From an uncultured Eubacteriales bacterium (lineage in GTDB: Bacteria > Bacillota > Clostridia > Christensenellales > Aristaeellaceae): a DNA stretch of 59,155 bases. The notes beneath the pieces are model-generated. The model did no database searches. It was given only the letters and a program-made list of their open reading frames with translations, and had not been told where the DNA came from. This document shows positions 31,891 to 44,074 of this stretch, in pieces. Both the position numbers and the translations under genes were made by a program. Every line of letters starts with the position of its first letter. Position 1 is the first letter of the stretch. The stretch lies in NCBI GenBank assembly GCA_902793325.1, contig CADBCY010000026.1:1-59155 (forward strand), in the 5' to 3' direction.

Positions 31891-32676
31891 ATGAACACAC
31901 AGATCGCGCTGGGCGTGCTGATCCCGTTTCTCGGCACGAGCCTGGGATCGGCGCTGGTCTTTTTATTGAAGAAGCAGCTCTCCGACCGCGTCCGGAAGGT
32001 CCTCACCGGCTTTGCCGCGGGGGTGATGGTGGCGGCCTCCTTCTGGAGCCTGCTGCAGCCCGCGCTGGACGCGAGCGCCGGGATGGGCGCGCTGTCCTTC
32101 CTGCCCGCGGCCGTCGGCTTCCTGGTCGGCATGGGGTTTCTGCTGCTGCTCGACATGATCACCCCGCACATGCACATGGACCGGCAGAACGAGGGCCCGC
32201 AGAGCGGCTTTAAGCGCACCACCAAGCTGATCCTGGCCGTGACGCTGCACAACATCCCCGAGGGCATGGCGGTGGGCGTGGTCTACGCGGGCTTCCGGGG
32301 CGGCAGCACGGGCATCAGCGCCGCGGGCGCGCTGGCGCTGGCGTTGGGCATCGCCATACAGAACTTCCCCGAGGGCGCCATCGTCTCCATGCCGCTGCTG
32401 GCGGAGGGCATGCCGAGGCGCAGGACCTTCTGGATGGGCGTGCTGTCCGGCGCGGTGGAGCCCGTCGCCGCCGTCGTGACGCTGCTGGCCGCGGGGCTGG
32501 TGACGCCGATCCTGCCGTATTTCCTGGCCTTTGCCGCGGGGGCGATGATGTACGTCGTGGTGGAGGAGCTGGTGCCCGAGATGTCGGAGGGCAGGCATTC
32601 AAACGTCGGCACCGTCGCGTTTTCGCTGGGCTTCGTGCTGATGATGATCCTGGATACGACGCTGAGCGGGGTGTAA
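31891..32676 (+). CDS. ZIP-family divalent metal transporter
   Basis: A 261-residue protein with eight membrane helices. The ZIP signature helices are clear: TLHNIPEGMAVGV in TM4 and AIQNFPEGAIVSMPLL in TM5, carrying the metal-binding His, Asn and Glu residues, and a short His-containing loop HMHMD between TM3 and TM4. ZIP proteins (ZupT, GufA) carry zinc, iron or manganese into the cytoplasm. It is the fifth gene of the operon from 28866. Its company with methyltransferases and a hydrolase is not a standard metal-uptake set. Confidence 0.9.
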   Translation: MNTQIALGVLIPFLGTSLGSALVFLLKKQLSDRVRKVLTGFAAGVMVAASFWSLLQPALDASAGMGALSFLPAAVGFLVGMGFLLLLDMITPHMHMDRQNEGPQSGFKRTTKLILAVTLHNIPEGMAVGVVYAGFRGGSTGISAAGALALALGIAIQNFPEGAIVSMPLLAEGMPRRRTFWMGVLSGAVEPVAAVVTLLAAGLVTPILPYFLAFAAGAMMYVVVEELVPEMSEGRHSNVGTVAFSLGFVLMMILDTTLSGV

Positions 32677-33505: not shown

Positions 33506-33541
33506 AAAGAGGAGCCTGCCGGTTCGGCGGGCTCCTCTTTT
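33506..33541. terminator. Bidirectional terminator
   Basis: AAAGAGGAGCCTGCC / GGCGGGCTCCTCTTT stem with GGTTC loop, T tract on both strands. It serves the operon on the left and the DtxR-like gene, whose stop codon lies inside it. The left arm is duplicated at about 33490. Confidence 0.85.
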
Positions 33542-33935
33542 ATGCCTGTTCCTTTTGCGAATCGCGTGCCTGCGGGAGGGGAAACCGCTTCCTGATGGCG
33601 TACAACGAGGGGTTGCTCAGGGAGCCCGCGAGCGCGCCGGCTTCCTTCTTGGCGACGTCTTCGTCCACCCCGGCTTCGGTGAGCATGCGGTTGAAGAAGT
33701 CGTAGCGCTCGTGGAACGCGCTTGCGCGGCGCTCGCCGTCCGCCGTCAGGAGCAACGCGCCGTGGTTGCCGATGCTGACCAGCCCCTCCCGGAGCATCTG
33801 CTTGACGGCGACGCTGACGCTGGCCTTGGAGTACTCCAGCCAGGCGGCGACATCGACGGCGCGGACGACGAGAAAGCGCGTGCCCAGCAGCAGTATGGCG
33901 TGCAGGTAGCGATCCATGGTGCGATCATTCAGCAT
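33540..33935 (-). CDS. DtxR/MntR-like regulator lacking metal ligands
   Basis: A 131-residue protein with the DtxR winged helix (VVRAVDVAAWLEYSKASVSVAVKQMLREGLVSI, LLLTADGERRA) and dimer region (GVDEDVAKKEA). The usual ligands are replaced. The N-terminal Asp/Asn and Glu of YLE-type starts become R9 and H12, the ERH histidine becomes Y78, and the EACxxEH cluster reads EAGALAG (G100, A103, G104). It should still bind DNA, but control by Fe or Mn as in DtxR or MntR is unlikely. It is followed by the AraC-type gene upstream on the same strand, and both face the iron operon. It may be metal-blind, or sense by another mechanism. Confidence 0.85.
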   Translation of the reverse strand: MLNDRTMDRYLHAILLLGTRFLVVRAVDVAAWLEYSKASVSVAVKQMLREGLVSIGNHGALLLTADGERRASAFHERYDFFNRMLTEAGVDEDVAKKEAGALAGSLSNPSLYAIRKRFPLPQARDSQKEQA

Positions 33936-33956: not shown

Positions 33957-34316
33957 TTATCGGCGGTCCGAACCGCAGCGGCATTCGGTGGGCGTCATCC
34001 CCGTCGTCCGCTTGAACACGTGGGAGAAGTGGGCGGACGAGACGAACCCGACCGCCTCGCCGACCTCGGAGATGCTCAACTCCGTATCGCGCAACAGGGC
34101 CTGGGCCTTTGTACAGCGCACGCGGTTGTGGTAGCCCAGCAGCGTCTGCCCGGTGCGGGATTTGAACAGCCGCAACAGGTAGCTGCCGTTGATGAACAGC
34201 GCTTCGGAGAGCGCCTGCAGGGAGAACTTCTCCGCGCTGTGGCTTTCGATATAGTCTATGGCCGCCTTTACGAGCGCATCCCCGGAATCCCGGTTTTCTG
34301 TGTTTTTCATATCCAT
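33957..34316 (-). CDS. AraC-type helix-turn-helix regulator (DNA-binding domain only)
   Basis: About 119 residues from ATG 34316 (or 34310; GGGGG upstream). It holds the two helix-turn-helix units of AraC: KFSLQALSEALFINGSYLLRLFKSRTG and SISEVGEAVGFVSSAHFSHVFKRTTGMTPTE. There is no separate ligand domain, so signal input must come through a partner or through its own amount. It shares a transcript with the DtxR-like gene and is divergent from the FTR1 operon. A 25-bp direct repeat next to the FTR1 promoter has the geometry AraC-type activators use, which makes this operon the likely target. Confidence 0.88.
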   Translation of the reverse strand: MDMKNTENRDSGDALVKAAIDYIESHSAEKFSLQALSEALFINGSYLLRLFKSRTGQTLLGYHNRVRCTKAQALLRDTELSISEVGEAVGFVSSAHFSHVFKRTTGMTPTECRCGSDRR

Positions 34317-34354
34317 CGCCCCCGAACGCCGGTACGGTCTGGAGTAAGTTATTA

Positions 34355-34372
34355 CTAACAAATATATGTTAG
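34355..34372. promoter_or_regulatory. Palindromic operator candidate
   Basis: CTAACA-N6-TGTTAG, just downstream of the minus-strand -10 box at 34376-34381; binding here would repress the AraC/DtxR-like genes. Two related TTAG/CTAA or TAACA/TGTTA sites lie at 34467 and 34505. Confidence 0.55.
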
Positions 34373-34375
34373 CAT

Positions 34376-34405
34376 AATATAACTCAAATTGCAAGCGATT
34401 TTCAA
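34376..34405 (-). promoter_or_regulatory. Promoter of the AraC-type and DtxR-like genes
   Basis: Minus strand TTGAAA (34405-34400), 18-base spacer, TATATT (34381-34376). Confidence 0.6.
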
Positions 34406-34461
34406 ACAAGTCAATATCAGGAAAGAAAACGGGCGCAACAAGTCAATATCAGGATAGAAAA
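34405..34461. repeat. 25-bp direct repeat, 32-bp period
   Basis: Two copies (34405-34429 and 34437-34461) of AACAAGTCAATATCAGGA followed by A/T then AGAAAA, with one mismatch. The period of 32 bases is three helical turns. The second copy overlaps the likely -35 box of the FTR1 operon. This looks like an AraC-family activator site. Confidence 0.7.
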
Positions 34462-34504: not shown

Positions 34505-34516
34505 TAACAAATGTTA
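34505..34516. promoter_or_regulatory. TAACA-AA-TGTTA palindrome
   Basis: Third related palindrome, in the leader of the iron operon, about 65 bases before the FTR1 start. Confidence 0.4.
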
Positions 34517-34579
34517 AATCCATTTAACGGTTCTGAGCGTGCGTCAGTCGGCGCTTGCCGATTGGGCAGGGAAGGAAGT

Positions 34580-36325
34580 ATGCACATGAAAAGGACGAGC
34601 ATTGCCCGGCTGGCGCTGGTCGGCCTGCTGGCGCTGATCCTGTTGGCGCAGGGCATGGCCGCGATGGCGGAGGCGGATACCCGCTGGGGGGACGCCGCCG
34701 ACGGGATCGACAAATTCCTGGACGCGGCCTTCGAGGACTACCTGGCGGGGAACGCCGACAGCGCCTATCAAAACGTTTCCAACGCCTATTTCAGGGTATA
34801 CGAAACCACCGGCTTCGAGCGGCAGACGATGAGCTATATCTCCGGCAACCGCAAGAACGCCGTGGAGATGCAGTTTTCCAACTGCAAGGCGGCGGTCAAG
34901 AAGGACAACGCCGAGCAGGACACCATCGTCTCCGTGCGCAGCGCGCTGGTCAAGCTGAAGGGCATGATCCGCGAGGACGCCAACAAGCTGGCGGGCCAGC
35001 AGGGCGGCGCGCAGAGCGAGATGAAGTGGTACAGGGGCGGCGAGATGGTTGCCTCTGACCCGTACCCGGAGTATTCCGCCGACCCCAACGCCGCCGCGAA
35101 GTACGAGAGCTGGTACGAGGCCGCGACGCTGGTCAAGGAGCTGCTCGACACGGCCTATATGGGCTACCTGGACAAGGACTTCACCGCCGCGGCGGACAAC
35201 CTGGAGACCGCCTACTACAGCGTGTACGAGGAATCCGGCCTGAGCCACAGGATCTATACCGACCTTTCGCTATCGGACCGGCTCGGGATGGAAAAGCAGT
35301 TTACGACCCTGAAGGGCCTCGTGGACACCGCGGAGGAGAAGTACCAGAAGAACAAGTTCCGCACCACCACCGACAAGGCCAAGAACAGCATCCTGAAGCT
35401 GGCAAAGCGCATCGACGAGCAGGAGGCCGCGGCGAAGGCGGCGGAAGCCCCGGAGGTCGCCGAAACCGAGGTCGTCGAGGAAAAGCCGTCCGACCCGAGG
35501 CTGCTTACCTTCCTGGCCGCGTTTGGCATCATCGTGCGCGAGGGGCTGGAGGCCATACTGGTCATCGCCGCCATCATCGCCTACCTGACCAAGTCCGGCA
35601 ACGGCCGGAGCCTCAAGAACGTGTACATCGGCGCGGTCGCCGGCATCGCGGCGAGTTTCGCCGCGGCGGCGGTGCTGGCCTGGGCGAAGCGGGCGTTCGT
35701 CGGCGCGGGCCTGGCGCAGGAGGTCATCGAGGGCATCACCGCGCTGATCGCCGTGTGCGTGCTGTTCTACGTGTCCAACTGGATGATCTCCAAGGCCGAG
35801 GCCGCGAGTTGGAGCCGCTACATCGACGGCAAGGTGCAGTCCTCGGTGGAGCAGGGCAGCGCGTTCGCGCTGGCGTTCACGGCGTTCCTGTCCGTGTTCC
35901 GCGAGGGCGCCGAGGTGGTGCTGTTCTACCAGCCGATGCTCTCCGAGGGCAATCCCGGCATGGTGTGGGCGGGCTTCGGCGCGGGCTGCGTGCTGCTGGT
36001 GTTCGTGTACCTGGCCATCACCAGGTTGTCCATCCGGCTGCCCATCAAGGTGTTCTTCACCGCCACGTCGATCCTGATGGCCGTCATGTGCGTGTCGTTC
36101 CTCGGCAGCGGCATCAAGGAGCTGGCCGAGGGCAATGTGTTCGACCTGGCGCTCAGGGTGCCGGGCATCCCGGAGAACGACGCGATCCAGGTATTCGGCA
36201 TCTATCCGTACCTCGAGACGCTGGTGCCGCAGCTCATCCTGTCCATCGTGCTGCTGGTGACGTTCATGATCGCCCACTACCGCGGTAAGATGGATGCGCT
36301 GCGGGCGAAGCTCGACCGGAACTAG
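34580..36325 (+). CDS. FTR1-family iron permease with extracytoplasmic domain
   Basis: About 581 residues from ATG 34580, which has AGGGAAGG upstream; a start at 34511 would put non-hydrophobic sequence before the signal peptide. After a signal peptide (ALVGLLALILLAQGMAAMAEA) comes an exported helical domain of about 300 residues built of two similar units (FLDAAFEDYLAGN... and LLDTAYMGYLDKDF...). Seven membrane helices follow, with the two FTR1 iron motifs REGLEAILVI and FREGAEVVLFY. FTR1/EfeU/FetM permeases pass ferric iron delivered by an oxidation or carrier step. It is the first gene of the nine-gene iron operon and is followed after about 90 bases by the P19 gene, the pairing seen in FetMP-type systems. 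Confidence 0.92.
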   Translation: MHMKRTSIARLALVGLLALILLAQGMAAMAEADTRWGDAADGIDKFLDAAFEDYLAGNADSAYQNVSNAYFRVYETTGFERQTMSYISGNRKNAVEMQFSNCKAAVKKDNAEQDTIVSVRSALVKLKGMIREDANKLAGQQGGAQSEMKWYRGGEMVASDPYPEYSADPNAAAKYESWYEAATLVKELLDTAYMGYLDKDFTAAADNLETAYYSVYEESGLSHRIYTDLSLSDRLGMEKQFTTLKGLVDTAEEKYQKNKFRTTTDKAKNSILKLAKRIDEQEAAAKAAEAPEVAETEVVEEKPSDPRLLTFLAAFGIIVREGLEAILVIAAIIAYLTKSGNGRSLKNVYIGAVAGIAASFAAAAVLAWAKRAFVGAGLAQEVIEGITALIAVCVLFYVSNWMISKAEAASWSRYIDGKVQSSVEQGSAFALAFTAFLSVFREGAEVVLFYQPMLSEGNPGMVWAGFGAGCVLLVFVYLAITRLSIRLPIKVFFTATSILMAVMCVSFLGSGIKELAEGNVFDLALRVPGIPENDAIQVFGIYPYLETLVPQLILSIVLLVTFMIAHYRGKMDALRAKLDRN

Positions 36326-36414
36326 GCGTTTCCGTAACGGGTCTCCGCGCCCCCTGCCCCGCGCGGGCGGCGTTGAAGATACAAACAAAAACACATCATT
36401 AGGAGGATTTGACC

Positions 36415-36960
36415 ATGAAGAAGTTTCTTGCCCTGCTGCTGGCCGTGATGATGCTCAGCGTTTGTGCGTATGCCCTGGCCGAGGAGGCCGGTTTCGACGA
36501 GTATGAGCTGGGCGTCGAGGGCGAGCAGGAGATCGGCTTCATGACCATGGCGATGGTCTACTTCCAGCCCGTGGACATGGCGCCCGCCGACCTGGCCGCG
36601 CCCAAGGAGGGCTCCGACCTGCACATCGAGGTGGACCTGACCGCCAACGAGAACCCCTACGGCTTCCCGGTGGACGGCTGGGTGCCCTACCTGAGCATCG
36701 ACTACGTCATCAAGGACACCGAGGGCAAGGAGGTCGTGACCGGCTCCATGATGCCCATGGCGGCGTCCGACGGCCCGCACTACGGCAACAACATCGCGCT
36801 GCCCGAGGGCGAGTACAGCATCACCCTGTCCATCAAGAACCCCGCGGAGAACGGCTACCTGCTGCACGTCGACGACGAGACCGGCGTCGAGGCGGACGAG
36901 TTCTGGACCGAGCCGCTGGAGGCGACCTGGACCGGCTGGAAGTTCGTCAAGGAGTGGTAA
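36415..36960 (+). CDS. P19/Tp34-family extracytoplasmic iron-transport protein
   Basis: A 181-residue secreted protein; ATG 36415 has AGGAGG eight bases upstream. A signal peptide (MKKFLALLLAVMMLSVCAYALA) precedes a beta-sandwich domain with family hallmarks VYFQPVDM, WVPYLSIDY, MMPMAASDGPHYGNN and HVDDETGVE. P19/FetP/Tp34 proteins bind copper and iron outside the membrane and feed an FTR1 permease. The Met and His residues of the metal site (MMPM, GPHYG) are kept. The only Cys in the leader does not make a lipobox (LSVC), so a free or otherwise anchored protein is expected. Confidence 0.92.
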   Translation: MKKFLALLLAVMMLSVCAYALAEEAGFDEYELGVEGEQEIGFMTMAMVYFQPVDMAPADLAAPKEGSDLHIEVDLTANENPYGFPVDGWVPYLSIDYVIKDTEGKEVVTGSMMPMAASDGPHYGNNIALPEGEYSITLSIKNPAENGYLLHVDDETGVEADEFWTEPLEATWTGWKFVKEW

Positions 36961-36996
36961 TTCCTTCTCACCGTTGAGACAACGGTTCCAAAAGCA

Positions 36997-37033
36997 TGCT
37001 GATACGCTGTCCGCGGGGGATGACGTATCAGCA
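36997..37033 (+). other. Intercistronic hairpin inside the iron operon
   Basis: Perfect 10-bp stem TGCTGATACG / CGTATCAGCA between the P19 and DUF2318 genes, with a smaller one (ACCGTTG-AGA-CAACGGT) at about 36970. Neither has a U tract. They may stabilise the abundant 5' part of the mRNA or mark a processing point. Confidence 0.5.
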
Positions 37034-37131
37034 TTATGTGCGTAATACGACGATTGTCGGCGCGCGCCCTCGCCCGCCGACCTTGAAACCTTCGGCTTTC
37101 CCAATCACGCATTCTCAGGGAGGCATGAACC

Positions 37132-38403
37132 TTGCTGAAATATCTATGGACAGTCACCCAGGATCTCTTGATCGCGGTGACGCTGGTGACCTGGATGCAC
37201 GCCGTACTGGCGCGGCGCCATGACAGATTCGGGCGCGTCTTTCACGGCGTCGGCATCCTCCTGGGCGTTGTCGCGTCGGCGGCGCTGGCTGCCGTGAAGG
37301 GCAATTCCAACAAGATCATATCCAGCCACTGGAACCACTATATCTACGCCTTCATCATGGGCTTTACGCTGGCGTTTCTCCTCTTCAGCCTGCTCGCCGG
37401 AAAGAAGTGGAGCAAGGTCCCGCTGTGCCTGTCCGGCGCGGGGCTCTCCGCGGCGCTGATCTTCTACCAGTTGCCCGGCGTGATGCTGTACCCCTTCAAC
37501 TTCAACACGATGGGCGAGGGCTACCTTTCGTCCTACTACATGGTGCGCATGGCGGGCTGGCTGCTGGCGCTCCTGCTGCTCGTTGCCTATTCGCGCATGC
37601 TGTACAACTGCGCTTTGCATATCCGACCCCTCCGCATTGTGAACGCGCTCCTGACCGCGGGGACGCTGGTCAACGCGGCGTACTGCTTCGGCCGCTTCTT
37701 CGCGCCCTGGGTCAACCACGCCAAGTGGCTGAAGTGGTCGGTGAAGTATACCGAGGAGGCCTACGGCTGGATCGGCGACTGGATGATGTTCACCGCCTAC
37801 CATTCCATGCTGTTCATCTGGCTCGTCGTCGCGCTGGCGGCGGCGTGCCTCATCATCTGCTTTGCGCAGAACGTCCGCGTGACGGAGCCGTGGGACAACC
37901 CCGCCCAGCGGCGCAAGCTGCGCGCGCGCAACCGCCACTTCCGCCGCACGGCCTGCGTCGCGCTGGCGGCGCTGATCCTGTTCACGGGCTTTTTGACGCT
38001 GGTCAAGGCCTACGACACCCGCGTGATCGAGCTGTCCGCGCCGGAGACGTTTACCGAGGAGGAGGACAGGATCCTCGTGCCCATGGAGGCCGTCAACGAC
38101 TTCCACCTGCACCGCTTCGAGTGGGAGACGCCGAACGGCGTGAACGTCCGCTGGATCGTGGTGCGCAAGCCCAATTCCGCCTCCTACGGCGTGGGGCTGG
38201 ACGCCTGCGAGGTCTGCGGCAACGCGGGCTACTACGAGCGAAACGGCCTGGTGGTCTGCCGCCGCTGCGACGTGGTGATGAACACCAACACCATCGGCTT
38301 CAAGGGCGGCTGCAATCCCATTCCCCTCAGGTACGAGGTGGAGGGCGGCAACCTGGTCTTTGCGATGGACGACCTGATCGCGGGAGAAAAAGAGTTTAAG
38401 TAA
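37132..38403 (+). CDS. DUF2318 membrane protein with CxxC pairs
   Basis: A 423-residue protein. The start is TTG 37132 with GGGAGG eight bases upstream. Eight or so membrane helices fill residues 1-290. The C-terminal domain, outside the membrane by prediction, carries DACEVCGNAGYYERNGLVVCRRCDVVMN, the two CxxC pairs of DUF2318, followed by GGCNPIP. DUF2318 proteins are thought to bind an Fe-S cluster or metal and take part in iron redox steps next to P19 and FTR1. It stands fourth in line for electron or iron transfer with the FMN-bearing permease encoded two genes on. The exact chemistry is not established. Confidence 0.88.
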   Translation: MLKYLWTVTQDLLIAVTLVTWMHAVLARRHDRFGRVFHGVGILLGVVASAALAAVKGNSNKIISSHWNHYIYAFIMGFTLAFLLFSLLAGKKWSKVPLCLSGAGLSAALIFYQLPGVMLYPFNFNTMGEGYLSSYYMVRMAGWLLALLLLVAYSRMLYNCALHIRPLRIVNALLTAGTLVNAAYCFGRFFAPWVNHAKWLKWSVKYTEEAYGWIGDWMMFTAYHSMLFIWLVVALAAACLIICFAQNVRVTEPWDNPAQRRKLRARNRHFRRTACVALAALILFTGFLTLVKAYDTRVIELSAPETFTEEEDRILVPMEAVNDFHLHRFEWETPNGVNVRWIVVRKPNSASYGVGLDACEVCGNAGYYERNGLVVCRRCDVVMNTNTIGFKGGCNPIPLRYEVEGGNLVFAMDDLIAGEKEFK

Positions 38404-38420
38404 TAAGGGGGAACGGGCAG

Positions 38421-39716
38421 ATGCTATTTCGAATGATTCGCGGCGTGCTGTTCCACCAGAAGGGCAAGATGCTGCTGATCGCCATTACCATCGCGCTGGG
38501 CGCGTCGCTGGCCACGGGCATGCTGAACGTGGTGATGGACGTGGAGGACAAGGTCAACAAGGAACTGAAAAACTACGGCGCGAACATCACCGTCAAGCCG
38601 AAGGACGCCTCGCTGCTGTCGGACATCTACGACGTGGGCGACGGCGGGGCGCTGAACGCGGCGTACCTGCGCGAGGACGAGCTCGGCAAGCTCAAGACCA
38701 TCTTCTGGGCGTTCAACATCGTGGACTTCACGCCCTTCCTCGACGCGCAGGCCGTCCTGCCGGACGGCGACGGCGCGAAGGTCGTGGGCACCTGGTTCAA
38801 CCACCACCTGGCGCTGCCCACCGGCGAGGAGCTGGACGCGGGCGTGCAGGGCATGCGCTCCTGGTGGGAGATCACCGACGGGCGCTGGCTGAACGAGGCG
38901 GACGAGAACGCCGACGGCGAGATCATGGTCGGCGCGCTGCTGGCGGAGCGGAAGCGCTGGACCGTGGGCGAGAGCGTAACGCTCACGGGCAGCCACGGCG
39001 AAAAGGAGATGAAGATCGTGGGCATCTACGACGCCGGCGGCGACGAGGACGAGCAGATCTTCGCCACGCTGGACGCCGTGCAGGCGCTGACGGACCGCGA
39101 GGGCAAGGTGGCGTCCATCGAGGTCTCCGCGCTGACCACGCCCGACAACGACCTGGCCCGCCGCGCGGCGAAGAATCCCGCGGCGCTCACCAGCCGCGAC
39201 TACGAAACCTGGTACTGCACGGCCTACGTCAGCGCCATCTGCTACCAGATCCAGGAGGTCATCACAGGCTCGGTGGCGAGCGCCGTCAGGCAGGTGGCCG
39301 AGAGCGAAGGCACGGTGCTGGACAAGACGAAGCTCTTGATGATCCTGATTACGGCCCTGAGCCTGATCGGATCGGCGCTGGGCATCTCGAACCTGGTGAC
39401 CGCCTCCGTCATGGAGCGCGCGCAGGAGATCGGCCTGCTGAAGGCCATCGGCGCGAAGGACCGGTCGATCACCGGCGTGGTGATGACGGAGATCCTGATT
39501 ACCGCGCTCATCGGCTTCGCGGCGGGCTACGGCATGGGCTTCGGCTTTGCGCAGCTCATCGGGCGCAGCGTGTTCGGCTCGGCCATCGAGATGAACACCC
39601 GGGTCATCCCCATCGTGGCGGGTCTGATCGCGCTGGTGACCATCGCGGGCTCCCTGCCCGCCATCCGCATGGTGCTGCGGCTCAAGCCCGCGGAAGTGCT
39701 GCACGGAGGACACTGA
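38421..39716 (+). CDS. FtsX/MacB-type ABC permease 1
   Basis: A 431-residue permease starting at ATG 38421 behind GGGGGAACGGG. It has one N-terminal helix, a large extracytoplasmic domain (about residues 45-290) and three C-terminal helices of the FtsX fold (LITALSLIGSALGISNLVTASVMERAQEIGLLKAIGA, then two more). This topology is that of MacB/LolCE systems, which move substrates on the outer face by mechanical coupling rather than through a pore. It pairs with the permease encoded at 39718-41114 and the ATPase at 41117. In the Campylobacter P19 cluster two such permeases and one ATPase occur in the same order. Confidence 0.88.
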   Translation: MLFRMIRGVLFHQKGKMLLIAITIALGASLATGMLNVVMDVEDKVNKELKNYGANITVKPKDASLLSDIYDVGDGGALNAAYLREDELGKLKTIFWAFNIVDFTPFLDAQAVLPDGDGAKVVGTWFNHHLALPTGEELDAGVQGMRSWWEITDGRWLNEADENADGEIMVGALLAERKRWTVGESVTLTGSHGEKEMKIVGIYDAGGDEDEQIFATLDAVQALTDREGKVASIEVSALTTPDNDLARRAAKNPAALTSRDYETWYCTAYVSAICYQIQEVITGSVASAVRQVAESEGTVLDKTKLLMILITALSLIGSALGISNLVTASVMERAQEIGLLKAIGAKDRSITGVVMTEILITALIGFAAGYGMGFGFAQLIGRSVFGSAIEMNTRVIPIVAGLIALVTIAGSLPAIRMVLRLKPAEVLHGGH

Positions 39717-39717
39717 C

Positions 39718-41114
39718 ATGACGAAGAGACGGATGTTTTTGAGAATGGTCACCGCGTCGCTGCTTCGCCGGCGCTCGAGGATGCTGATCGCGCTGTTGTC
39801 CATCGGCATCGGCGCGACGATCCTGGCGGGCATGGTGACGATCTACTACGACGTGCCGCGGCAGATGCGCGCGCAGATGCGCTCCTACGGCGCGAACATG
39901 CTGCTGATGCCCGCGGAGGGCGAGTGGGGGCGTCGCCCTATCGCTACGTGCGGCTGGACATGACCTCCCGCCAGCAGTCGTTCACCACCGCCGGCACCGA
40001 CTTCGAGCAGGTTCAGAAGACCAGCCCCTATTTCAGCGTGGAGGGCAGCTATCCCGAAGCGCCGCGCGAGATCCTGGTCGGCCGGGAGATCGCCGAGACC
40101 ATCGGCGCCCGGGTGGGCTCCGACATGGAGCTGACCTGGCAGCCGACGGTCAGGGAGGCGGACGGAGAGGCGTCCGACGACTGGACGCCCGGCGCGGTTC
40201 TTTCGGGCAGCGCCAAGGGCTTCGGCGACGCCATGGTGGTCGTGACCGCGACGCTGGACGATGAAGCGAAGATCGCCGAAATCAAGATCGACGCCTCCAC
40301 CCAGACGCCGGAATACGGCGGGCGGACCGCCGAGGACGCGCTGTTTTTGAAGCAGTTCATCGGCAAATCCCTGCCGCTGACCATGGGCGGGGACGTGGAC
40401 GCGCTTTCCGGCGCGACGGTCACCTCGACCGCCGTCGTGGAGGCGCTGAACGCGGCCCGCGCCGCCGATGCGGCGGCGCAACCAAAGACCACCCGCTACA
40501 GGGTCACGGGCATCCTCGTGACCGGCGGCGAGGAGGAGGGCTACGTGTTCATGTCCACGGACGATCTGCAGGCCCTGACCGGCGAGGACGTGCTGGACGT
40601 GGCCGAGCTCTCCGTCTCTGCGGACGAGGAGCAGCTCAACGCCTACGCCGAGGCGCTGACGGGCAACGGCGTGACGGCGCGGCTGGTGAAGCGCGTCACC
40701 AAGTCGGAAACGGCGGTGCTGGGCAAGCTGCAGGCGCTGGTGTTCCTGGTGACCGTCGTCGTGCTGATCCTGACGATGATCTGCGTGTCCACCACGATGA
40801 TGGCGGTGGTCTCCGAGCGGCGGCGGGAGATCGGCCTCAGGAAGGCGCTGGGCGCGTCGGACAATTCCATTCGCGGCGAGTTCCTGGGCGAGGGCATGTT
40901 CCTCGGGCTGCTGGGCGGCGCGCTGGGGGCGGTGCTGGGCTTCGTGTTCGCCCAGGTGGTGTCGGTGAACGTGTTCCACGCCTCGATCATGTTCCGGCCG
41001 CTGCTGTTGCCGGTGACGGTACTGGTGTCCATGATCATCGCCGCGGCCAGTTGCCTGATGCCAATTAAGCGGGCGGTGGCCATCGATCCGGCCCTCGTAC
41101 TGAAAGGAGAATAG
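39718..41114 (+). CDS. FtsX-type ABC permease 2 with FMN-binding domain, frameshifted
   Basis: ATG 39718 encodes an N-terminal helix and SYGANMLLMPAEGE. The frame breaks in a five-base G run at 39926-39930, and the rest (ASPYRYVRLDM onward) continues in another frame to 41114. One more G gives a single 465-residue protein. Between the FtsX helices the exported domain contains an FMN_bind unit: GFGDAMVVVTATLDDE, EYGGRTAEDALFLKQFIGK and DALSGATVTSTAVVEALN. SGAT-type motifs receive FMN on Thr (here near residue 234) from ApbE. Neither other permease in the operon has it. I infer an extracytoplasmic flavin that passes electrons during iron uptake. The break is probably a sequencing error, since the flanking operon is intact. 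Confidence 0.82.
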
Positions 41115-41116
41115 AA

Positions 41117-41791
41117 ATGGCGCTTCTTGAACTCAGGAATATATCCAAGATATACGGCGAACTGAAGGCGCTGGACAACGTGAGCCTCCACGTGGACAAG
41201 GGCGAGTGGGTGGCCATCATGGGGCCGTCCGGCTCCGGCAAGTCCACGATGATGAACATCATCGGCTGCATGGACAAGCCCACCCGGGGTGAGGTGCTGC
41301 TGGACGGCGAGGACATCTCAAAGCTCCCGGGCAAGCGGCTGACGGACATCCGGCGCGACAAGATTGGCCTGATCTTCCAGCAGTTCCACATGGTCACCTA
41401 CCTGACCGCCGTGGAGAACGTGATGGTCTCGCAGTACTACCACTCCATGCCCGACGAGCAGGAGGCCCTGGAGGCGCTGGGGCGCGTGGGCCTGCGGGAG
41501 CGCGCGAGGCACCTGCCCAGCCAGCTCTCCGGCGGCGAGCAGCAGCGCGTGTGCGTGGCGCGGGCGCTCATCAACCACCCCGAGCTGATCCTCGCCGACG
41601 AGCCCACCGGCAACCTGGACGAGGCCAACGAGAACATCGTGCTCGACCTGTTCCGCCAGCTCCACCGCGAGGGCACCACGCTGATCGTCGTCACCCACGA
41701 CCCCGAGGTCGCCGAAGCCGCCCAGCGCACCATCGTGCTGGAGCACGGCAGGGTGGCGCGGGAGATCGTCAACGAAAACTTTAAGGAGTGA
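41117..41791 (+). CDS. ABC ATPase (LolD/MacB class) 1
   Basis: A 224-residue ATPase with Walker A GPSGSGKST, Q-loop FQQFHM, signature LSGGEQQR, Walker B LILADEPTGNLD and H-loop VVTHD. It starts two bases after the permease 2 stop. It should drive the permease pair encoded just upstream, in the manner of MacAB/LolCDE mechanotransmission. No fused membrane domain is present. Confidence 0.93.
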   Translation: MALLELRNISKIYGELKALDNVSLHVDKGEWVAIMGPSGSGKSTMMNIIGCMDKPTRGEVLLDGEDISKLPGKRLTDIRRDKIGLIFQQFHMVTYLTAVENVMVSQYYHSMPDEQEALEALGRVGLRERARHLPSQLSGGEQQRVCVARALINHPELILADEPTGNLDEANENIVLDLFRQLHREGTTLIVVTHDPEVAEAAQRTIVLEHGRVAREIVNENFKE

Positions 41792-41794
41792 ACC

Positions 41795-42187
41795 ATGAAA
41801 AGACAGAGTATTCCGGCGCTGGCAATCCTTCTGCTCGCCGTCATCGTTTCCGTCGGCAGCCAGACCTTCCTGGGCGCCTGCGTCCACGGCGACGGCAGCT
41901 TCGGCGCGTGCCACTGGGCGTGCCGGGCGATGCTGGGCGAGGGCGTACTGCTGGCGGCGCTGTCGCTGCTGGCGCTGGCGATGAAGCGGGAGCGCGCGGG
42001 CCTGTACCTGGCGATGCTCCCGGCGTCGCTGCTGGGGCTGTTGACGCCCGGCACGCTGATCGCGCTGTGCAAGGCGCCGACGATGCGCTGCCGCATGCTG
42101 ACGCAGCCCGCGATGGAGATACTGTTCGGCGCGATGCTGCTCGTGTCGCTCGTCGGCTGGCTGCTGGCGCGCAAGGGGGAGAAGTAA
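41795..42187 (+). CDS. DUF4418 small membrane protein
   Basis: A 130-residue protein with four membrane helices. Cysteines cluster at the outer ends of helices: GACVHGDGSFGACHWACRA and CKAPTMRCRM. The CxxPTMxC element is typical of DUF4418, a family of unknown role that often accompanies the FTR1/P19/ABC iron genes. The Cys, Met and His residues suggest metal or redox work. It lies between the first ATPase and the third permease with spacings of three bases. Confidence 0.8.
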   Translation: MKRQSIPALAILLLAVIVSVGSQTFLGACVHGDGSFGACHWACRAMLGEGVLLAALSLLALAMKRERAGLYLAMLPASLLGLLTPGTLIALCKAPTMRCRMLTQPAMEILFGAMLLVSLVGWLLARKGEK

Positions 42188-42190
42188 CGC

Positions 42191-43390
42191 ATGGGAACTT
42201 CGCATCTCCCGATGAAGAACCTGCTCCGGCGGCCCGGGCGCACGGCGGCGCTGGTGCTGCTGACGGCGCTGCTGGCGGCGTCGGTGTTCGGCGGCTCGGT
42301 GGTGGTCGGCTCGCTGCGCAGCGGCCTCGAGAGCCTGCAGGCGCGGCTCGGCGCGGACATCATCGTGATGCCCGCCGAGGCCGAGAGCAAGGTCAGCTTC
42401 AAGAACATGCTGCTCCAGGGCACGACGGGCGCGTTCTACATGGACGCCTCGGTGCTGGACGAGGTGCGCGCGGCGCAGGGCGTGGAGATCGCCGCGCCGC
42501 AGACCTTCCTGGCCTCGCTGAAGGCCGACTGCTGCGCCATCAAGGTGCAGATCATCGGCATCGACCCCGACGCGGACTTCACCGTGAAGCCGTGGATCGA
42601 CGAAAGCTATTCGCAGGACCTCGGCGACATGGAGGTGGCCGTGGGCTGCAACGTGACGGCGGGCGTGGGGGAGACGCTCAAGATCTACGAACAGTATACG
42701 CACGTCGTGGCGAAGCTGGCCGAGACCGGCACCGGGTTGGACACGGCGGTGTACTGCAACATGGACACCATGAAGAAGCTGCTGGCCGCGGCGGAGGCGA
42801 AGGGCGTCAGCCATAAAATCACCAGCGGTTCCGACGTGATCTCCGCGGTGTACGTGAAGGTAAAGGACGGGGCCGACGTGGGCCGGGTGAACAACTGGCT
42901 GAACGGCCACATCCGCAAGGTCACCGCCGTGCGCGCCCGCAGCATGTTCACCGACGTTTCCGACAGCCTCGCCGGCATCTCCCGCGCGGCCTGGGCGCTG
43001 ATCGGCGCGGTGTGGGCGCTGGCGCTGGTGATCCTGCTGGTGACCTTCGCCATGATGATCCACGAGCGGCGGCGGGAGTTCGCGGTGCTGCGGTTGCTGG
43101 GCGTGTCCCGGCGCGGCCTGCGCGGGGAGATCCTCATGGAGACGGCGCTGTGCGGCCTCGCGGGGGCGCTCGTGGGCGTGGGCGTCGCGGCGCTGGGCGT
43201 GTTCCCGTTCACGACGCTGATCGAGACGAAGCTGGGCCTGCCGTACCTGACGCCCGCCGTCGGCGCGCTGTTGAAGCTGGCGGGCGGCACGATCCTGGCG
43301 ACGCTGCTGGTCGAGCTGCTGGCGGGAACGTGGGCGGCGGCGCGGCTGAGCCGCACCGACCCCGGCACGACGCTGAGAGAGGGGGCGTGA
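42191..43390 (+). CDS. FtsX/MacB-type ABC permease 3
   Basis: A 399-residue permease with the one-helix, exported-domain, three-helix layout of FtsX. The N-terminal LRRPGRTAALVLLTALLAASVF and the C-terminal MMIHERRREFAVLRLLGVSRRGLRGEIL are characteristic. The outer domain has KADCCAIKVQIIGID but no FMN motif. It forms a unit with the ATPase encoded four bases downstream and is related to, but clearly diverged from, permeases 1 and 2. Whether it works as a homodimer or with one of them is unknown. Confidence 0.88.
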   Translation: MGTSHLPMKNLLRRPGRTAALVLLTALLAASVFGGSVVVGSLRSGLESLQARLGADIIVMPAEAESKVSFKNMLLQGTTGAFYMDASVLDEVRAAQGVEIAAPQTFLASLKADCCAIKVQIIGIDPDADFTVKPWIDESYSQDLGDMEVAVGCNVTAGVGETLKIYEQYTHVVAKLAETGTGLDTAVYCNMDTMKKLLAAAEAKGVSHKITSGSDVISAVYVKVKDGADVGRVNNWLNGHIRKVTAVRARSMFTDVSDSLAGISRAAWALIGAVWALALVILLVTFAMMIHERRREFAVLRLLGVSRRGLRGEILMETALCGLAGALVGVGVAALGVFPFTTLIETKLGLPYLTPAVGALLKLAGGTILATLLVELLAGTWAAARLSRTDPGTTLREGA

Positions 43391-43393
43391 GGC

Positions 43394-44074
43394 ATGCTTC
43401 ATGCCGAAAACCTGTCCATGCGCTACTTCCGAAAGACCGGGCAGGCCAATCATTTCCACGCGGTGAAGGACGTGAGCCTGGCGCTCCGCCCCGGCGAGGT
43501 CGCGCTGCTCACGGGCCGCTCCGGCTCCGGCAAGACGACGCTCCTTCACATGCTGGCGGGGCTGCTGACGCCCACCGAGGGCCGGGTCCGGCTGGATGAC
43601 ACGGACCTGTACGCCCTGCCGGACGCCGCTCTGTCGCGCCTGCGCAACGCAAAGCTCGGCGTGATCCCGCAGGGCAGGAGTGCCGTCGATACCCTGACCG
43701 TACTGGAAAACGTGCTGCTGCCGCAGCAGCTTCGCGGCGAAAAGGGCGACGCGAAGGGCGCGCTCCGCTGGCTGGAGGCGCTCGGCATCGCAAACCTGCG
43801 GGACGCCCGCCCCGCCGAGCTCTCCGGCGGCGAGCTCAGGCGCATGGCCATCGCCCGCGCCCTGGCCGGGAACCCGGAGGTCGTCCTGGCGGACGAGCCC
43901 ACCGGCGACCTGGACGATGAAAACACCGCGGCGGTCTTGTCGCTTTTGCGCAAGGCCGCCGTGGAAGAGGGGAAAACGGTGCTGCTGGTCACGCACGACA
44001 GCGAAGCGCTGCCCTACGGGGATCGCATTTATCGCATGGAGAGCGGAGCGTTATCTGCGCAGAGCGAAGAATGA
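43394..44074 (+). CDS. ABC ATPase (LolD/MacB class) 2
   Basis: A 226-residue ATPase with Walker A GRSGSGKTT, signature LSGGELRR, Walker B VVLADEPTGDLD and H-loop LVTHD. The Q-loop reads IPQGRSA, unlike ATPase 1, so it is not a recent copy. It ends the iron operon and is followed directly by a terminator. It probably energises permease 3. Confidence 0.92.
   Translation: MLHAENLSMRYFRKTGQANHFHAVKDVSLALRPGEVALLTGRSGSGKTTLLHMLAGLLTPTEGRVRLDDTDLYALPDAALSRLRNAKLGVIPQGRSAVDTLTVLENVLLPQQLRGEKGDAKGALRWLEALGIANLRDARPAELSGGELRRMAIARALAGNPEVVLADEPTGDLDDENTAAVLSLLRKAAVEEGKTVLLVTHDSEALPYGDRIYRMESGALSAQSEE

Follow-up and report, generated by a model that had tools for sequence, protein, structure and literature searches.

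The window analysed here is the whole stretch of 59,155 nucleotides from an uncultured Eubacteriales bacterium (assembly GCA_902793325.1, contig CADBCY010000026.1, positions 1 to 59,155). It carries an iron-uptake operon of the P19 type, in which the gene of the second permease, fetC, encodes a domain of the family that binds flavin mononucleotide (FMN). Our comparison makes it probable that FetC, the second permease of the P19 iron system, holds an RnfG-type FMN_bind domain inserted in its exported core and that its flavin carries electrons toward iron. Most simply, the insertion took place once, in the ancestor of a Clostridia clade known mainly from ruminant guts. The new element is the FMN domain fused into FetC, as the operon and its link to FMN proteins have already been described. 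The fusion ties the poorly understood FetBCD permease to electron transfer, with RNF as a possible electron source. Furthermore, it offers a single polypeptide for measuring flavinylation, electron entry and ATP dependence.

The FMN domain of FetC and the frame break in the window

The features of the fetC region are as follows.

39718..39963, + strand: N-terminal piece of FetC (permease 2), with the first membrane helix and the start of the exported core, frame 1
39923..39924, + strand: site of a 58-bp gap against relatives, where the frame is broken (DNA alignment)
39924..41114, + strand: remainder of FetC in the other frame, with the rest of the core, the FMN_bind insert and the FtsX helices (FMN_bind 43.9 bits, FtsX 73.4 bits)
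40218..40457, + strand: FMN_bind domain (PF04205), placed within a hairpin of the MacB-like exported core
40416..40418, + strand: Thr codon of SGAT, the candidate FMN attachment residue (from the sequence)

PF04205 matched positions 40218-40457 (+) with an E value of 6.2e-12 and 47.7 bits in the genome scan, and with 43.9 bits in the open reading frame 39924-41114, against a curated cut-off of 22 bits. Thus, the full FMN_bind unit that an earlier note, written from the letters of this DNA, had placed in permease 2 is confirmed, and the motifs it had picked out (GFGDAMV, FLKQFIGK and DALSGATVTS) are present in the sequence. Its statement that permeases 1 and 3 are free of the domain also held, as a domain scan of permease 1 (38421-39716) and permease 3 (42191-43390) matched FtsX and MacB_PCD only and found no FMN_bind in either. 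The DALSGAT of the window's FetC fits D-x-x-[ST]-G-A-T, which, from NqrC and RnfG, we take to be the flavinylation motif with the modified Thr within it. All 61 non-redundant fused relatives keep the motif, its fourth position being S, T or A. The earlier note had also called for a search for apbE, and it regarded a missing FMN_bind match or a missing ApbE as fatal to its proposal. Both are there, with two ApbE in the window's own genome. Among the 26 genomes with the fused gene in a set of 60, ApbE occurs in 25 and RnfC in all 26, and in four genomes (G002, G013, G018 and G024) ApbE lies 7.1-7.4 kb from fetC. A second FMN domain considered for one relative, L091, was rejected, since it proved to be one domain split by a loop.

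The region 39718-41114 had been read as one permease gene, a reading that missed a break. Its 1397 bases hold two frames, 39718-39963 (81 amino acids, then a stop) and 39924-41114 (396 amino acids), and a DNA alignment with seven relatives (L012, L013, L014, L015, L017, L019 and L030) places the absence of 58 bp in the window between 39923 and 39924. A single continuous permease is therefore ruled out, and the window's copy of FetC is either frame-broken or misassembled. Because the break splits the core, FtsX alone was scored in the window and the MacB-like core was not; in the intact relative L041 both the FtsX C-terminal domain and the MacB-like core were matched. The FetC of intact relatives, of about 483 amino acids, holds MacB core, FMN_bind and FtsX together.

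Whether the gene is dead in the source strain bears on this copy only. A pseudogene, whose FMN domain would there be without function, is a serious possibility that we place somewhat below even, the alternative being an assembly error. The 58-bp gap does break the frame, and a break of this kind is found in the window's copy only, among the 26 fused copies of the 60-genome set. On the other hand, the assembly is a metagenome-type draft of 67 contigs, and assembly faults are common in such drafts. Moreover, the insert and the other operon genes of the window are still open reading frames, and the fused gene is intact, or cut by a contig end only, in 25 other genomes, where its ratio of nonsynonymous to synonymous substitution rates (dN/dS) is well below 1. 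Therefore, the family-wide finding holds whether the window's copy is dead or misassembled.

Distribution and descent of the fusion

The occurrence of the fusion in relatives is solid. Within the 60-genome set, the fused gene is present in 24 of the 28 genomes of the genus, the window's own included, and in 2 of the 8 other genomes of the family. Another collection held it in 74 of 79 loci, a ratio that is no frequency, since the fused gene served as the search bait. A census was made of 27 further P19-bearing genomes (16 at the level of the phylum, 6 of the class and 5 of the order). FetC could be read in 23 of them, as L141, L156 and L166 yielded no FetC and G755 was not among the genomes read; it was plain, i.e., free of the insert, in 19 and fused in 4, and all four fused cases belong to the window's family.

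The non-redundant set comprised 61 fused and 23 plain FetC rows. Left out of it were L163, L165, L173-L175, L011-L040, fused rows shorter than 440 amino acids and rows at least 88% identical to a kept row. A FetC tree of 57 proteins (34 of the 61 fused and all 23 plain rows, with a long-branch warning among the latter), from which the insert columns had been removed, needs two changes of state. The fused FetC proteins fall under one branch with a support of 100 in the Shimodaira-Hasegawa-like approximate likelihood-ratio test (SH-aLRT), and the nearest row outside is the plain L167. This is consistent with a single gain followed by a single loss; the method does not infer the root, and taking plain FetC as ancestral rests on all outer rows being plain.

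The earlier note could not say whether such a fusion had been reported. The operon and its FMN-protein link are already described (PMC6083913, PMC8238504; these papers and PMC10783030 are represented here by excerpts), whereas a full-text literature search, with most subscription papers outside its coverage, found no description of FMN_bind within an FtsX/MacB permease.

A separate FMN protein in plain operons

According to Liu et al. 2018 (PMC6083913), the P19 system comprises six genes that are conserved across 33 species. The excerpted account adds a seventh, which is a thioredoxin for most Proteobacteria, while Actinobacteria, Firmicutes, Spirochaetes and Synergistetes have an FMN-binding protein (PMC6083913). 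Meheust et al. 2021 (PMC8238504) list 260 P19 clusters with an FMN-binding-domain gene, a count that could include fused genes. The window shares with the FetMP-FetABCDEF or P19 cluster (Campylobacter jejuni 1649-1656 and homologues) the gene order of FTR1, P19, DUF2318 protein, permease, permease and ATPase, the Cys motif CxxC-x13-CxxC-x14-C of FetA and the association with an FMN-binding protein seen in Firmicutes (PMC6083913, PMC8238504, PMC10783030). It differs in that the FMN protein of these accounts is a separate seventh gene, whereas here the domain lies inside the second permease, and in the DUF4418, permease and ATPase genes that follow FetD.

The place directly after FetD was therefore compared between the two kinds of operon. 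For non-redundant loci with enough downstream sequence, an FMN gene stands there in none of 50 fused and in 9 of 22 plain operons; 11 of the 61 fused rows and 1 of the 23 plain rows were dropped as having no FetD or no 700 nucleotides downstream. A large FMN protein is encoded within 3 kb on the opposite strand in three of the 50 fused rows, and two of the 22 plain rows (L162 and L114) have an FMN protein near FetD, not directly after it. In L114, a protein with FMN_bind and FAD_binding_2 domains stands after the second ATPase. A home-made profile, which gave 0 hits on reversed sequences, detected a small FMN_bind protein after FetD in 10 of the 19 plain census operons. Pfam confirmed FMN_bind in L145 and L162, the two of these ten that were scanned, and in L167 of the window's genus. 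Both plain operons of this genus (L167 and L168) have an FMN lipoprotein. The window's contig has no separate FMN gene in a PF04205 search, whose sole match was FetC; DUF4418 follows FetD there, and a thioredoxin elsewhere was not searched for. A Fisher test of exclusivity (p 5.8e-6) is not used as evidence, since the operons are related and the tree indicates about one gain.

Two plain operons have a small protein with two CxxCH motifs after FetD (L148 8228-8500 and L150 6686-6919). Its cytochrome c7 matches are sub-threshold, and it could be a haem substitute for the FMN protein.

The best-supported reading of this comparison is that the fused domain stands in for the separate FMN protein of many plain relatives. 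Since the domain replaces an FMN protein, and two-CxxCH proteins or thioredoxins occupy that place elsewhere, electron delivery outside the membrane is favoured. The outer-face redox path of the earlier note is upheld to this extent, whereas its suggestion of a redox step driven or gated by ATP is so far unsupported. That FetC carries the fusion and the operon no free FMN protein argues that electron delivery and the ABC (ATP-binding cassette) module act at the same place.

The same evidence bears on another role of the domain, that of a redox sensor or structural lid whose oxidation state would shift the conformation of the ABC module, with no carriage of electrons to iron. ABC modules of the FtsX/MacB type transmit conformational signals across the membrane, and it is a hairpin of the exported core that holds the insert. 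However, the plain relatives have free-standing carrier types after FetD, either FMN lipoproteins or the two-CxxCH proteins of L148 and L150, and a separate lipoprotein is no built-in sensor. We therefore regard a sensor or lid as improbable and prefer electron carriage.

Origin of the inserted domain

Outside their own group, the 20 inserts compared matched best with FMN domains from the family's tandem-FMN proteins (46-67% identity, 77-108 bits); scores were 24-37 bits against the operon lipoproteins and 26-45 bits against other FMN proteins. Each of the five tandem-FMN proteins compared scores above the TIGR01947 cut-off for RnfG (117.6-314.3 vs 102 bits), and the window's insert stays below the RnfG cut-offs (39.6 vs 205 bits for NF045876 and 26.2 vs 102 bits for TIGR01947). 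Among NCBIfam models the insert is nearest to RnfG and the lipoprotein of L167 nearest to PplA, both below cut-off. A tree of FMN domains separates inserts and tandem-FMN domains from lipoproteins and other FMN domains (SH-aLRT 96.7). Judged by these similarities, an RnfG-type origin of the insert is favoured, not proven.

Could the insert instead derive from the FMN lipoprotein of the operon itself, through a simple gene fusion that left its electron partner unchanged? In plain operons the lipoprotein gene does lie adjacent, and the approximately unbiased (AU) test does not reject inserts and lipoproteins as one group (p 0.465). Nevertheless, the similarity of the inserts to lipoproteins is far below that to tandem-FMN domains, the nearest models differ, the tree groups the inserts with the tandem-FMN domains and the insert is internal in FetC, not terminal. 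Such a fusion is thus a poor candidate in our estimate, and the RnfG-type origin is preferred to it. The topology test itself leaves the donor open. A test with three groups (p 0.852) does not separate the alternatives, since each side is then the complement of another. A single clade of inserts was likewise not rejected (p 0.898), though free trees place the insert of L101 apart.

As to the home of the donor, the window's own genome has a tandem-FMN RnfG after ApbE and before RnfC, RnfD and RnfE- and RnfA-like proteins, the last two below cut-off. RNF genes directly follow the tandem-FMN protein in L180, and RnfC and a piece of RnfD follow it in L185 with one gene between. The donor could not be assigned with certainty to an RNF operon, as RNF genes lie beside only these two of the five tandem-FMN proteins. 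The source of several best matches, L176 734-6252 of genome G035, is an RnfG-type protein with seven FMN domains that stands after ApbE and before GMP synthase. The RnfC of G035 is on another contig.

Proposed role in iron uptake

The insert shares its FMN domain type with the multi-flavinylated RnfG of RNF, from which FetC differs as an ABC permease far below the RnfG cut-offs. FetC shares an FtsX-type membrane part and a MacB-like exported core with MacB, LolCE and HrtB (type VII ABC), while falling below both the MacB and LolCE equivalog cut-offs (50.8 vs 966 for MacB NF007826). We know of no MacB-, LolCE- or HrtB-type permease with a flavin domain. The PplA-like FMN lipoproteins of plain operons are also FMN_bind proteins beside the same permeases, after FetD, but they are separate small proteins of another FMN_bind subgroup.

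A redox role of FetC in general appears likely from these comparisons. As a first step, ApbE would likely link FMN to the Thr of SGAT. The FetC-held flavin, at the outer face of the membrane, might then take electrons from RNF, whose RnfG-type proteins carry additional FMN domains of this type; we consider this step moderately likely. Electrons would pass on to the Cys-rich domain of FetA and/or to P19-bound iron, so that iron moves through FTR1; the iron would be reduced rather than oxidised. Finally, at the level of a guess, the ABC cycle of FetB-FetC-FetD may move or dock the flavin domain. For RnfG, excerpts of Meheust et al. describe multi-flavinylated forms and propose a second electron path to outside acceptors (PMC8238504). 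In Campylobacter, the loss of fetA, fetB, fetC or fetD each impairs growth; the excerpted account regards both what FetBCD does and what it transports as unclear, and suggests that reducing power from FetBCD is relayed via FetA (PMC10783030).

A bolder form of this proposal is unlikely in our view. FetC would there be a flavinylated ABC permease whose ATP-cycled arm, bearing a covalent FMN on the outer side of the membrane, loads electrons at the tandem-FMN RnfG of RNF, swings to FetA and P19 and delivers them to iron. If true, one machine would couple ATP hydrolysis, RNF redox energy and iron import, and FetC would be, to our knowledge, the first flavinylated ABC permease.

Several observations weigh against FetC as an electron carrier of RnfG-type origin. 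The window's copy is frame-broken, so the gene may be dead in the source strain or the assembly wrong. Nine of the 19 plain census operons have no FMN gene after FetD; therefore, flavin is not required by the iron system as such. The plain L114 and L119 are nested inside the fused clade without the insert, and no FMN gene was seen in the locus of L119, so that the domain is not indispensable. G005 has a fused FetC, and no ApbE was found in this genome, which is 96% complete. As for the donor, the AU result given above leaves room for the lipoproteins, and not every one of the nearest tandem-FMN proteins belongs to an RNF operon, since L176 is followed by GMP synthase and L177 and L178 by the contig end. 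Furthermore, the RnfG domains of the window's own genome are 42-45% identical to its insert, below the values of L176 and L177. Lastly, the thioredoxin-like FetE and FetF may be oxidases according to the excerpts of PMC10783030, which bears on the direction of the electrons.

Gene content of the iron operon

The operon occupies 34511-44074 (+) and encodes, from 5′ to 3′, FTR1, P19, FetA, FetB, FetC, FetD, DUF4418, a third FtsX permease and a second ATPase. Its genes other than fetC are listed below.

34511..36325, + strand: FTR1-family iron permease (FetM type), 604 amino acids (PF03239, E 3.4e-37)
36409..36960, + strand: P19 / FetP iron-binding protein, 183 amino acids (PF10634, E 7.4e-48)
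37132..38403, + strand: FetA, membrane protein with a C-terminal FtrD-like (DUF2318) domain (PF10080, E 1.7e-27)
38421..39716, + strand: FetB (permease 1), FtsX/MacB_PCD, no FMN_bind (PF02687, PF12704)
41117..41791, + strand: FetD, ABC ATPase (PF00005, E 1.2e-35)
41795..42187, + strand: DUF4418 membrane protein, directly after FetD (PF14387)
42191..43390, + strand: permease 3, FtsX/MacB_PCD, no FMN_bind
43394..44074, + strand: second ABC ATPase (PF00005, E 4.8e-33)

The Pfam matches agree with the FTR1, P19 and CxxC-rich DUF2318 proteins that had been assigned from the letters alone. The marks of a P19-associated system are found in the window: FTR1 adjoins P19, the DUF2318 protein has the Cys motif, and two permeases are followed by an ATPase. 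The five Cys of FetA (C359, C362, C376, C379 and C394) are arranged as CxxC-x13-CxxC-x14-C and are invariant in 44 of 44 aligned FetA; the motif is given as CxxC-x13-CxxC-x(14,15)-C in the excerpts of PMC6083913.

The set of DUF4418, third FtsX permease and second ATPase (41795-44074 in the window) accompanies the majority of fused operons with sufficient sequence, and also some plain operons (L115, L158 and L162). Two regulator genes lie divergently upstream of the operon, at 33540-33935 (-) and 33957-34409 (-); one product is MntR/DtxR-like, with scores below cut-offs, and the other is of the AraC type. Before FTR1, a direct repeat of 23 bp, its copies 32 bp apart and differing by one mismatch, was found by eye (about 34407-34429 and 34439-34461) and may be an operator. 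A ZIP-family metal transporter is encoded further upstream, at 31891-32676.
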